Shown: one piece after another, positions 4,450 through 48,238 of the stretch
Layout of the letters: each line of letters opens with the position of its first letter
How positions within the stretch are numbered: position 1 is the first letter of the stretch
Source of the DNA: Lachnospiraceae bacterium MD335
GTDB taxonomy: Bacteria; Bacillota; Clostridia; Lachnospirales; Lachnospiraceae
DNA: 64,000 nucleotides
Direction of reading: 5' to 3'
Assembly (NCBI GenBank): GCA_000403335.2
Contig: KE159629.1
Span: 693,736 to 757,735, forward strand
Made by a program: the position numbers and the translations under genes
The notes under the pieces: generated by a model
What the model was told of the DNA's origin: nothing
Databases searched by the model: none
Seen by the model: only the letters and a program-made list of their open reading frames with translations

Positions 4450-4793
4450 GGGGCAGTAAAGGTTTCGACAGGGAACTTGAAGATGGAGAAGCAGGCCGCA
4501 GGTATGCGTTAATTCCAAAATTAAAATTAAACGCTGAAGACAATTTAGCATTCGCAGCCTAATGGCTGCTGTCTGACCTGATGCACCTACACATCAGGAC
4601 CCAGGCATCGATTTTGTAGGAAACGACACATGCAAAGCTTTGCGCATGCGGGCGTATTATGAAGCTACTGACCGTTTAGGGGTGTTGGTTCGCCTATCCG
4701 GAAGGGAAACGGGCTTGCCCAAAACAGCCGACTAAGCTTGTAGAAGTACATGGGATGGTTTTTTGGACACGGGTTCGACTCCCGTCTGCTCCA
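4450..4793 (+). ncRNA. ssrA: Transfer-messenger RNA (tmRNA)
   Basis: It rescues stalled ribosomes by acting as tRNA-Ala and then mRNA for a degradation tag. The 5' end GGGGCAG (4450-4456) pairs with CTGCTCC (4786-4792); A4793 is the discriminator and CCA is not encoded. A TTCGACTC T-loop lies near 4773-4780. The tag frame runs from the resume codon GCG at 4506 to TAA at 4560-4562 and reads ALIPKLKLNAEDNLAFAA, ending in the hydrophobic residues recognised by Clp proteases. The gene is complete although mobile-element remnants lie on both sides; ssrA is a well-known integration target. Confidence 0.95.
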
Positions 4794-4795
4794 TT

Positions 4796-4843
4796 GAGAG
4801 AAATGCTTGAAAACGTTAATTTTTTGGGTATTTCTCTTTTTTA
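4796..4843 (+). terminator. Rho-independent terminator of ssrA
   Basis: AGAGAAAT (4797-4804) pairs with ATTTCTCT (4830-4837), followed by a run of Ts. It starts directly after the tmRNA 3' end. Confidence 0.75.
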
Positions 4844-21735: not shown

Positions 21736-21895
21736 GATTAACCTCCATTTGGCTGCTGCCTGCAAGTTTCCTTTCATATATTCCCGCAAAAACGTTCCTT
21801 TCTTTATGGATTATATCATACATTTTTGCTTTCATACGGAATTTGTTAATTTTTTTACAATTTTTTACAAACATTTCACGACTTTTCATACGAAT

Positions 21896-21982
21896 CGAGT
21901 GGAGAAGATTTATCTTCCCCTACTCGCGCGCCGGACGCGGGCAGCTTTAGCTGCATATTTCCTCTCCGCGTCCGTGTGCATA
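21896..21982 (-). repeat. Two-hairpin structured repeat, copy A
   Basis: Minus strand order: TTTTATGCACA, hairpin 1 (GGACGCG 21973-21967 with CGCGTCC 21939-21933, inner stem GCAGC/GCTGC and bulge AGAGGAAATAT), linker GCGCG, hairpin 2 (21926-21896, CGAGT/ACTCG). It directly follows the T-tract of the rplT terminator. Copies B (23368) and C (40505) keep the bulge and both stems with changed bases on both sides, which suggests a conserved RNA fold. A family name is not known to me. Confidence 0.7.
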
Positions 21983-21983
21983 A

Positions 21984-22014
21984 AAAAATTGAGCACATCA
22001 GCGCTCAATTTTTT
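21984..22014 (-). terminator. Terminator of infC-rpmI-rplT
   Basis: AAAATTGAGC (arms 22012-22003 and 21994-21985) around TGATGT, followed by a T-run. It lies 26 bp after the rplT stop. Confidence 0.9.
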
Positions 22015-22039: not shown

Positions 22040-22396
22040 TTATGCAACACTGCTCTTTGCAAGCTCTGCAAGTGTCTTAAAGCCCTCCGCGTCATTGACT
22101 GCCATCTCTGCAAGCATTTTCCTGTTAATTTCAACACCGGCAGTCTTCAAACCGTACATCATCTTGCTGTAAGATAAACCATTCATTCTTGCCGCAGCGT
22201 TGATACGTGCAATCCAAAGTCTTCTGAACTGACGCTTTCTCTCTTTTCTGCCTGCATATGAAGATGCAAGCGCTCTCATTACGGACTGCTTTGCCACTCT
22301 GTACTGCTTTGAGCGTGCCCCTCTGTAACCTTTTGCGAGCTTTAACACTCTGTTATGTCTTTTTTTTGCGTTTAAACCGCCTTTAATTCTTGCCAT
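22040..22396 (-). CDS. rplT: Ribosomal protein bL20
   Basis: 118 residues, standard length. [20 protein letters not shown], then [20 protein letters not shown], are diagnostic. A 23S rRNA-binding assembly protein of the large subunit; in Firmicutes it also represses this operon by binding the leader. Last gene of the operon. Confidence 0.98.
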
Positions 22397-22751: not shown

Positions 22752-23258
22752 TTATCGTTTTTCAGCTAAAAACATTGTCATGCTTCTGCCCTCAACCTTC
22801 GGCTCCTTCTCGACAACGGCAATATCGCTTAAGCTCTCGCCGAAATCCACAAGAATATGCTTGCTGTTCTGCATATGAGCCATCTCGCGTCCGCGAAAAC
22901 GCAATGTCACTTTAACCTTATCTCCCTTGGTCAAGAACTTGCGGGCAGCATTTATTTTTGTGTTCAGGTCATTCGTGTCAATATTTGGAGATAAGCGGAT
23001 TTCTTTCACGTCAATAATCTTCTGCTTTTTCTTCGCTTCCTTCTCCTTCCTTGTCTGCTCATACTTGAATTTTCCATAATCAACAATCTTACATACAGGT
23101 GGTTTTGCCGTAGGGGCAATCTTTACCAAATCAACGCCGGCCTCCTCTGCAAGTTTCATTGCCTCCCTTGACGACATGATACCGAGCTGCTCGCCGTCCA
23201 CGCCGATTACACGCACCTCTCTGTCTCTAATCTGTTCGTTAATCATTAAATCGCTAAT
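22752..23258 (-). CDS. infC: Translation initiation factor IF-3, probable AUU start
   Basis: 168 residues. N-domain (INEQIRDREVRVIGVDGEQL), linker (KQKIIDVKEIRLSPNIDTND) and C-domain (KVTLRFRGREMAH) are complete. It dissociates ribosomes and checks the start codon. GGAGGTG (minus strand, about 23274-23268) is 9-10 bp before ATT 23258 but over 20 bp from the ATG at 23246. The start is therefore probably AUU, the known autoregulatory start of infC (ISDLMINEQ). Confidence 0.95.
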   Translation of the reverse strand: MSDLMINEQIRDREVRVIGVDGEQLGIMSSREAMKLAEEAGVDLVKIAPTAKPPVCKIVDYGKFKYEQTRKEKEAKKKQKIIDVKEIRLSPNIDTNDLNTKINAARKFLTKGDKVKVTLRFRGREMAHMQNSKHILVDFGESLSDIAVVEKEPKVEGRSMTMFLAEKR

Positions 23259-23367
23259 AACCTTACACCTCCATAAAATAAATCATAAGAAAATAAATTG
23301 TGTGCCAGCGTACTCAATAGCAAAAAGCTTCGCTTTTTGTCTAAATATTGAACACTGCTGCATTAAT

Positions 23368-23453
23368 CGAGTAAGGAAGAGCCATCTTTCCGTACTCGCG
23401 CCCCCCGTGCACCACTTCAATGGTATATTTCCTCTGCACGGATCTGTGCATAA
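23368..23453 (-). repeat. Two-hairpin structured repeat, copy B (infC leader)
   Basis: Minus strand: TTTATGCACAGA, hairpin 1 (CCGTGCA 23441-23435 with TGCACGG 23411-23405, inner ACCA/TGGT, bulge AGAGGAAATAT), linker, hairpin 2 (23398-23368, CGAGTA/TACTCG). It follows the T-tract of the leader terminator and lies 110 bp before infC, so it is inside the infC mRNA. See copies at 21896 and 40505. Confidence 0.7.
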
Positions 23454-23456
23454 AAA

Positions 23457-23484
23457 AAGTGGATAATCACAGAATTATCCACTT
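23457..23484 (-). terminator. Attenuator-like terminator in the infC leader
   Basis: AAGTGGATAAT and ATTATCCACTT form an 11-bp perfect stem with loop CACAGA-type bases, followed on the minus strand by a run of Ts. It stands between the promoter (23655) and infC, so transcription must read through it. Confidence 0.85.
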
Positions 23485-39259: not shown

Positions 39260-40477
39260 TTACGCCAACGTCTCCTCTTCCTCTTCGTACTGCGTCTGCT
39301 CCGCGTCTTCGGCATCTATGCCTTCATACGCTTCTTCGTATTCCGCCTCGTACTCGCCGTCCTCATATTCCTCTTCGTAGTAGACATCTCCGTCCTCGTC
39401 GTACATGTAATCCTCATACCTAAAGCCTTCCGCATCTTTTGCCTGCGTCTCCGACTTGATGTCAATCTTATACCCCGTAAGCCTTGCCGCAAGTCTCGCA
39501 TTCTGTCCTTCCTTACCGATTGCAAGCGAAAGCTGGTAGTCCGGCACGACAACCTTTGCCGTCTTTTCATCCGGGTCGGCAAACACGGCAACAATCTTTG
39601 CAGGAGAGAGCGCATTTTGGATAAAGTTTCCGGGGTTTTCATCCCAGTTCACAATATCAATCTTCTCACCGCGCAGCTCCTCGACAATCGCGTTCACTCT
39701 TGCACCGTTCATACCGACACATGCGCCGACCGCATCCACATTTGGATTGTTTGTTTTTACCGCAAGCTTTGTTCTGCTCCCTGCCTCACGCGCAATGCTC
39801 ATAATCTCAACCGTTCCGTCCTTAATTTCAGTAACCTCTGCCTCAAAAAGCCGCTTTACCAGCTCTGGGTGCGTGCGGCTCACCATAATGCGCGGTCCCT
39901 TAGGAGTGTTTTTGACTTCAAGGATATACACTTTAATACGCTCGGTAGGCTTAAACTCTTCGCCCTTTACCTGCTCCGCCTCATTTAAGATTGCATCCGC
40001 CTTTCCTAAATTAATGCTGATGTTTCTGCCCGTGTAGCGCTGTACAATTCCCGTCACCACATCCTTTTCCTTCTCAAAGAACTGATTGTACACAACGCTA
40101 CGCTCCTCCTCGCGGATTTTCTGCAAAATCACGTTCTTCGCATTCTGCGTGGCAATACGTCCGAACTCTTTCGACTTAATCTCCACATTAATCGTATCCC
40201 CGATCACCGCATCCTTGGAAATGTTCACCGCATCGTCAATACAGATCTGCACGACATCATCTTCCACCTCGTCAGGCGACGCCACAATCTCCTTCGTGGC
40301 ATACACAAGAAAATCACAGGTCTCCCTGTCAATCTGCACCGTGATGTTATCTGCTTTTCCAAAATGGTTTTTGCAGGCTGTCAGAAGCGAATTTTCAATC
40401 GCTTCAAAAAGAGTCTCCTTGCTGATTTCCTTCTCCTTTTCGAGAATGTTAAGTGCTTCCATTAATTCCTTGTTCAT
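39260..40477 (-). CDS. nusA: Transcription factor NusA
   Basis: 405 residues. N-terminal domain, S1 domain ([18 protein letters not shown] region onward), and KH1/KH2 ([52 protein letters not shown]). The end is a highly acidic Tyr/Glu tail (about 350-405). It controls pausing, termination and antitermination with RNA polymerase. Followed without a gap by rnpM. Confidence 0.97.
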
Positions 40478-40504
40478 TTTTCCTTTACCCTCCTATCATT
40501 GTAT

Positions 40505-40594
40505 CGAGCAGAAAAATACCTTCTTCCCTACCCGTCGCGCGACCTGTGTTCTGCTTTAACGGCATATTTCCTCTGAACAGGTCTGTGCATAAAA
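40505..40594 (-). repeat. Two-hairpin structured repeat, copy C (rimP-nusA)
   Basis: Minus strand: TTTTATGCACAGA, hairpin 1 (GACCTGT 40583-40577 with ACAGGTC 40547-40541, bulge AGAGGAAATAT), linker GCGCG, hairpin 2 (40534-40505, CGGGTAG/CTGCTCG). It fills most of the 168-bp gap between rimP and nusA, 28 bp before nusA. No terminator-type stem with a clear T-tract precedes this copy. See 21896 and 23368. Confidence 0.7.
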
Positions 40595-40645: not shown

Positions 40646-41122
40646 CTAAAAATCAAGCGTAAGCCTGATAATCGCAATGTCGGACTTTGCAAAGACCATA
40701 TCCTTCTTTCCGGAGCTCTCCTCCATTTCAATGGTAACGGTATCCTTATCGTATGCCTCTAAGATGCCGATAAACTCCTTTTGCCTGTCAACCGGTTTAT
40801 AGGTTTTAACCTCCACTTCCTCCCCTAAGCTCTTTTCAAGATGCCGGTCCTTTTTCAGCGCCCGCCCAAGTCCGGGACTTGACACCTCAAGAATATAGGC
40901 ATCCGGAATAAAATCCTCCTCGTCAAGCCGCTCCGAAAACGTACGGCTTACATTCTCACAGTCCACAATGCCAACGCCCTCCGGCTTATCAATATACGCC
41001 CGCAGATACCACTCACTGCCTTCCTTCACATACTCCACATCGTAAATCTCACAGCCGTTCGCCTGTACTATCGGCTCTAAGAGCGCCTCCGCGCGCTCCT
41101 CATAAACATCTTTTTTTGCCAT
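40646..41122 (-). CDS. rimP: Ribosome maturation factor RimP
   Basis: 158 residues. YDVEYVKEGSEWYLRAYIDK and EVSSPGLGRALKKDRH are diagnostic. It matures the 30S subunit. First gene of the operon; promoter not resolved. Confidence 0.95.
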   Translation of the reverse strand: MAKKDVYEERAEALLEPIVQANGCEIYDVEYVKEGSEWYLRAYIDKPEGVGIVDCENVSRTFSERLDEEDFIPDAYILEVSSPGLGRALKKDRHLEKSLGEEVEVKTYKPVDRQKEFIGILEAYDKDTVTIEMEESSGKKDMVFAKSDIAIIRLTLDF

Positions 41123-48130: not shown

Positions 48131-48238
48131 AATAAAAGCACAATTTATTTTTGGCTGGGCGGTGTATCCAGCATCTCAGGTACTCTTACGAGTGTGTCGG
48201 GAACCATTTCCGACCTCAAAAATAATTGTGCTTTTATT
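48131..48238. repeat. Cloverleaf-like inverted-repeat element
   Basis: AATAAAAGCACAATT (48131-48145) and AATTGTGCTTTTATT (48224-48238) are perfect 15-bp inverted repeats; flanking bases extend the pairing to ATTTTTG/CAAAAAT. Three hairpins lie inside: GCTGG/CCAGC (48154-48158, 48168-48172), ACTC/GAGT (48182-48185, 48190-48193) and GTCGG/CCGAC (48196-48200, 48210-48214). The right arm touches the stop codon of the PemK-like gene. Confidence 0.65.

Follow-up and report, generated by a model that had tools for sequence, protein, structure and literature searches.

A dispersed mobile element of ~87 bp behind intrinsic terminators in Lachnospiraceae, probably related to group IIC introns

Spliceosomal introns are believed to descend from group II introns. 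In the passages of a review on which we draw (PMC4424553), group IIC introns are described as inserting at intrinsic terminators, bacterial group II introns that lack an ORF as non-autonomous and in need of their protein in trans, and the group III introns of Euglena chloroplasts as stretches of 90–120 nt, sometimes with domain I and VI motifs only, that are thought to depend on trans-acting factors. The same passages point out that a search relying on domain V would have missed any bacterial derivative in which that domain is no longer recognisable (PMC4424553). Among short repeats, bcr1 and others of Bacillus cereus are reported, in the parts of that account used here, to be dispersed, structured and tied to a TTTAT motif (PMC6542083), and REP sequences to carry a GTAG or CGTC tag at the hairpin foot, with the RAYT gene flanked by repeats (excerpts of PMC3733652). 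The element described here shares with group IIC introns its target (the T-tract behind an intrinsic terminator), its orientation, the lack of a target duplication, a 3′ end of the form CTAC[TC][CT]GAT with a domain-VI hairpin, and tandem copies. Those introns are ~1.8 kb long and have domain V and a reverse transcriptase (RT), whereas the element is ~87 bp long and has neither, and its hairpin 1, with a purine bulge, has no recognised counterpart in them.

The window, meaning the whole 64,000-nt stretch of Lachnospiraceae bacterium MD335 that was analysed, holds three copies of the element (Table 1). A preliminary description made from the letters alone had noticed all three on the minus strand, and each lies within a few bases of where it had been placed; the stem pairs of both hairpins, the bulge and the linker are present in the copies as given there, and the gene names of the setting (L20, IF3, RimP and NusA) match Pfam. 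A covariance model finds no fourth copy in the window at E ≤ 0.001. A terminator T-tract precedes two of the copies, as had been said, namely those 3′ of rplT and in the infC leader; the copy between rimP and nusA follows a TTTTA that lacks a strong terminator hairpin, the best upstream hairpin reaching −4.1 kcal/mol. The observation was thus sound and its setting too narrowly drawn, the three copies being part of a dispersed family.

Table 1. Element copies, their targets, neighbouring genes and other known RNAs in the 64,000-nt window (G numbers are our labels for genomes)
Feature	Coordinates	Strand	Evidence
Element copy 1, 3′ of rplT, TGCACA...CTCGAT	21894..21980	-	Model match 21893-21985; empty site in G011; single-copy fold z -5.27
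Copy 1, hairpin 1	21932..21974	-	Purine-rich bulge 21955-21965
Copy 1, hairpin 2	21896..21926	-	
Intrinsic terminator hairpin and T-tract behind rplT, target of copy 1	21982..22010	-	By eye; hairpin test; same terminator without element in G011
Element copy 2, infC leader, between leader terminator and infC	23366..23450	-	Model match 23365-23455; same terminator occupied in G021 and G045
Copy 2, hairpin 1	23402..23444	-	
Copy 2, hairpin 2	23368..23398	-	
infC leader hairpin and T-tract, target of copy 2	23452..23484	-	By eye; hairpin test
Element copy 3, between rimP and nusA	40503..40589	-	Model match 40502-40594; sites without element in G041 and G047; decayed copy in G011
Copy 3, hairpin 1	40541..40583	-	
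Copy 3, hairpin 2	40505..40534	-	
rplT (ribosomal protein L20), upstream neighbour of copy 1	22040..22396	-	Pfam PF00453
infC (IF-3), downstream of copy 2	22752..23246	-	Pfam PF00707 and PF05198
rimP, upstream of copy 3	40646..41122	-	Pfam PF02576
nusA, downstream of copy 3	39260..40477	-	Pfam PF08529 and PF13184
Skipping-rope RNA	48146..48224	-	Rfam scan
tmRNA	4450..4796	+	Rfam scan

That the repeat is a dispersed mobile element of ~87 bp is strongly supported. Comparison with empty sites, from which the borders in Table 1 were set, reveals an insert running from TGCACA to CTCGAT, in fixed orientation between TTTTA and T, with no target duplication at the sites compared. At the rplT site, G011 reads CTCAATTTTTTTG followed directly by TCGTATG, and the source genome reads CTCAATTTTTTTA, the element and then TCGTATG, the base before the insert being the A at 21981. 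Among 29 readable rplT loci of the genus, three carry a copy or remnant (the source genome, G040 and G045) and 26 do not (by eye); at nusA, two of 30 loci have a copy (that of the source genome and a decayed one in G011) and 28 have none (by eye); the border drawn there from G041 and G047 may be off by about one base. At the terminator of the infC leader, G021 has a different subfamily and G045 a decayed copy, which indicates independent insertions at one terminator. Copies 95%–99% alike lie in unrelated flanks, and near-identical copies stand at unrelated sites in G236 and G518. Tandem elements are joined as CTCGAT/TGCACA, the joint that would arise from a second insertion at one and the same site between TTTTA and T. 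Across 53 copies the sequence is T-rich from −6 to −2, has A at −1 in 50 and continues with TGC, and the 3′ side is CTCGAT; with ends TGCACA and CTCGAT, the terminal inverted repeats and target duplication of a MITE of a DDE transposon are absent. The suggestion of a mobile hairpin family in the preliminary description is borne out by these empty sites, by the near-identical copies in unrelated flanks and by the dispersal. One copy (~2046-2112 of locus L018; G000:C12:61945-62011, minus strand) appears by eye to have the 5′ part of the element within the reading frame of an EamA-type transporter. A strand bias of the element was considered from the positive GC skew at 41 of 50 loci and set aside, since coding sequence is skewed likewise (113 versus 39 kb), which makes the skew of the element strand uninformative.

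The covariance model finds the family at 57 places in the source genome at E ≤ 0.01 and at 67 at E ≤ 0.1; blastn with copy 1 as query finds 24 at E ≤ 0.001, the query included. Of 23 other genomes of the genus, 22 have model matches, with up to 106 copies, as does one of 16 genomes of other families. Even draws that include the source genome gave four carriers among 196 genomes of the order and, with stricter filters and 14 matches scored per genome, 29 among 299 genomes of the family (28 of 298 genera). A consensus pattern hit 32 stretches in GTDB contigs, whose titles name Lachnospiraceae or Lachnotalea and, once, an "uncultured bacterium". A looser pattern added seven viral contigs, three without a model match and four holding copies with a common flank; in the four (L186, L187, L188 and L190) a single insertion with the same flank is followed by a degenerate second unit. 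Phages and plasmids searched by blastn with copy 1 gave no match. An Rfam scan of the window and 11 element loci returned nothing for the element at gathering score (the best sub-threshold match near copy 1 has E 1.1), in keeping with the preliminary description, which knew no named family. Nor does the open-access literature that we consulted, in the portions available (including PMC4424553, PMC3733652, PMC6006769, PMC6542083 and PMC2267715, most subscription papers lying outside it), describe this element family or any bacterial group II derivative without domain V. The bcr1 and other B. cereus repeats resemble it as dispersed structured repeats of Firmicutes and differ in size, host group and sequence class, a separation drawn from their description (PMC6542083); the parts of that account consulted describe no link of bcr1 to terminators or introns.

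Pairing in the element is conserved. Folded singly, copy 1 beats its shuffles (z −5.27), and copies 2 and 3 show no gain over theirs (z −1.06 and −0.65). In a MAFFT alignment of 14 copies, tested against the fold of copy 1, double compensatory changes occur at all nine pairs of the outer stem of hairpin 1, and four of the five inner pairs have changes on both sides. Paired cells amount to 94.7% versus at most 49.2% in slid controls. In covariation score, paired cells and double changes the alignment surpasses all of the 500 shuffles and each of the slid controls, whereas 78 of the 500 shuffles reach its count of further pair types. In 56 model-aligned copies, double changes are found at 26 of 27 pairs, in an alignment that itself leans toward the structure. 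In some copies the base of hairpin 1 is extended by pairing between GCGC in the leader and GCGC in the linker. Variation on this plan includes an extra hairpin inside the bulge region of hairpin 1 (L230 1552-1678 and L235 1482-1607), a long subfamily with ~16 additional bases in hairpin 1 (L012, L015, L017, L020, L024 and L026), near-identical copies of which differ mainly in the outer stem, and a subfamily with a deviating hairpin 2 and 3′ end (L234 and L237, and partly L236 and L238), two copies of which end in CCTATA instead of CTCGATT and some of which sit in ribosomal protein operons.

The preliminary description read such compensating changes as a sign of selection on RNA structure or of a mobile hairpin family. 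The conservation of pairing holds, but with G-U pairs exceeding A-C pairs across the copies by only a small margin (169 versus 111) it falls short of showing that the RNA is selected where it stands. The same weak excess would suit compensatory changes that arose as a by-product of mutation, through template switching that repairs imperfect palindromes, with no structural selection; this we judge very unlikely, as the bulge, linker and ends stay alike across distant subfamilies while the stems change together, and it would account for the covariation and not for the mobility. The idea of an RNA that regulates translation operons in cis and is maintained at its sites by selection would draw on the strong covariation, the position of copies 2 and 3 in mRNA leaders and the excess of G-U over A-C. 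We give it almost no weight: most orthologous loci of the genus lack a copy, the empty sites already contradict it, the borders are those of a mobile element, and the copies stand behind terminators of diverse genes. Neighbours by eye range from gapA-pgk and sugar transport to some translation genes such as rpsD and ffh-rpsP. A link to translation finds no support in this gene context or in the nusA and rplT loci that do without a copy, and a translation-specific regulator was rejected on these grounds.

Most of the sites have a terminator in common. A hairpin stands directly upstream of 44 of 53 copies in the source genome and 36 of 38 in other genera, compared with 84 of 500 control sites, when a terminator is taken as a single hairpin of −8 kcal/mol or lower whose end lies no more than 12 nt from the point of insertion. 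The 53 copies are 56 rows minus three that were partial, duplicate or weak, about five weaker ones of the 57 places being left out; the 38 are 40 regions minus two duplicate contig ends, come from seven genomes and were chosen by score from the family draw; the controls were sampled from 1,189 TTTTA sites in the retrieved DNA of the source genome. Cruder hairpin tests gave 34 of 53 (with 293 of 2,620 TTTT[AG] sites as control) and then 29 of 53 and 24 of 38; their 32-base fold cut long hairpins, and the test given above was used for this reason. The gene upstream of the element is on the same strand in 43 of 51 cases.

This target leads to group IIC introns, a link that lay outside what the reader of the preliminary description could see. 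We take the introns discussed here to be putative members of this class from their target and ends, which are typical of it. A hairpin and T-tract precede all eight introns with the 5′ end in view (by eye); three of these are from the genus and five from plasmids of Lysinibacillus, Roseburia, Tetragenococcus, Peribacillus and Pediococcus. One group II intron of the genus (locus L305 of G007, identified by Rfam D1-D4 models and an RT of TIGR04416) has as its left flank a hairpin with TTTTTTTA, and its right end, CTACTTGAT, adjoins TGCGCAG of one element, which a second follows; flanked in this way, the intron entered a position used by elements. The end of a decayed intron (L253 of G022) likewise adjoins an element, so that two of the seven such introns in the genus with the 3′ end in view do so. 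On a Peribacillus plasmid (L323), one group II intron directly follows another, and the two meet at CTCGAT/GTGTGCC in the manner of tandem elements.

The ends agree as well. Ten intron 3′ ends fit CTAC[TC][CT]GAT, a form that the search pattern itself required, and other kinds of group II intron in these data have different ends. Elements end exactly in CTACTCGAT in 22 of 53 cases here and 25 of 40 elsewhere, and fit CT[AG]C[TC][CT]GAT in 36 of 53 and 32 of 40, respectively. Aligned with domain VI, hairpin 2 scores 36.5 compared with 22.3 ± 0.5 for stem-preserving shuffles (maximum 23.9, n = 300), the comparison using 35 hairpins picked by pattern, nine domain VI sequences and the foot (GCGAGTAGGGG versus GTGAGAGGGG). 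Searches with a model of hairpin 2 miss the domain VI of the introns at E ≤ 1, which leaves this alignment as the basis of the likeness. The 5′ end of the element is of RTGCRC type (ATGCACA in 32 of 53, GTG in three of 53) and resembles GUGYG only loosely. No Rfam intron match that would indicate a catalytic domain V is present in the window or the 11 element loci, and an insert of ~87 bp, in which there is no RT or maturase gene, leaves no room for one. Hairpin 1 was considered as a degenerate domain V and rejected: its bulge and variable outer stem fit domain V poorly, and a short match in one subfamily is lost in others (by eye). From these comparisons of sequence we think it probable that the elements are non-autonomous relatives of group IIC introns, without domain V or RT, that are moved in trans. 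They would share non-autonomy and dependence on a protein in trans with ORF-less group II introns, which retain the ribozyme that the elements lack.

Movement as single-stranded DNA by a Y1 HUH transposase of the IS200/IS605 or RAYT type, which would recognise the two hairpins and insert 3′ of TTTTA, is quite unlikely. It would fit the hairpins near both ends, the oriented T-rich target and the absence of inverted repeats and target duplication, and Y1_Tnp is present in 20 of 38 genomes of the genus. However, none of 31 Y1 loci is flanked by half-elements, the sole element nearby being ~500 bp from a broken Y1 gene (L206); four genomes with 37 to 58 copies (G012, G006, G014 and G005) have no Y1_Tnp match; and the intron-like 3′ end and the shared position would be left unexplained. 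Half-models detect no separated element halves in the source genome, and so no autonomous parent built of such halves was found there. No link to a Y1/RAYT mobiliser emerges in the source genome or the 38 genomes of the genus, and Y1 transposases track element copy number no better than the maturase does. REP/RAYT systems are similar in being short, palindromic, non-autonomous repeats outside genes; they differ in the repeat-flanked RAYT gene, and the hairpin feet of the element (RTGCRCA and GCGCG, by eye) bear no REP-type tag, GTAG occurring solely inside the hairpin 2 stem.

It is also conceivable, if unlikely, that the element has its own mobiliser, shares with group IIC introns only the terminator target, and acquired its 3′ end by recombination or convergence. 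Copy number is tracked by no mobiliser, and nothing recognisably akin to hairpin 1 is seen in full introns (by eye), both of which would agree with such an origin. Against it, the position, the 3′ end, the hairpin foot and the tandem joint are all common to introns and elements.

Under the proposed relationship to group IIC introns, we infer that a group IIC ribonucleoprotein, acting in trans, copies the RNA of the element into DNA. In such a scheme hairpin 2 would take the part of domain VI and the 3′ splice site, the bulge of hairpin 1, rich in purines, would pair with the target T-tract as EBS1 does, and a full intron would supply the reverse transcriptase and the catalytic core, which, in an element without domain V, must come from elsewhere. 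The bulge (AGAGGAAA) is 80%–98% purine at its first eight positions in 91 copies. True pairs of bulge and target bind slightly better than reassigned ones, a level reached by two of 500 reassignments in the source genome and by nine of 500 for the other genera. This advantage shrinks when the targets are restricted to T-rich ones (32 of 500) or when G236 is dropped from the other genera (57 of 500), and among three control stretches one comes to 30 of 500. Bulge-target pairing as a guide is a hint only. The main weakness of the group IIC model is the lack of a detectable maturase in copy-rich genomes: of 18 genomes, 10 give no PF08388 match, among them six with 44 to 99 copies, and the source genome shows only a 5′-truncated intron of IIC-like type plus one of another kind. 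Incomplete assemblies, or loss of the intron after a burst, could explain this.

A further reading, which we offer tentatively and regard as somewhat doubtful, is that the elements are a bacterial counterpart of Euglena group III introns, core-less mini-introns of ~87 nt inserted, and perhaps spliced, by a group IIC ribozyme and RT in trans by way of the guide bulge, much like a bacterial SINE/LINE pair and a spliceosome-like division between intron and machinery. The length and the domain-VI-like end fit this comparison, and a domain I motif in the element is conjectural; group III introns interrupt genes and are spliced, whereas the elements are bacterial, mobile and mostly outside genes. 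On the group IIC reading, the copies in the window would be mostly neutral passengers, with copies 2 and 3 placing a structured stretch in the infC and nusA mRNAs. More widely, that reading would explain an unannotated repeat that is widespread behind the terminators, and sometimes in the leaders, of many genes, and a large core-less, domain-VI-tailed family in gut bacteria would make the action of group II ribozymes in trans directly testable.
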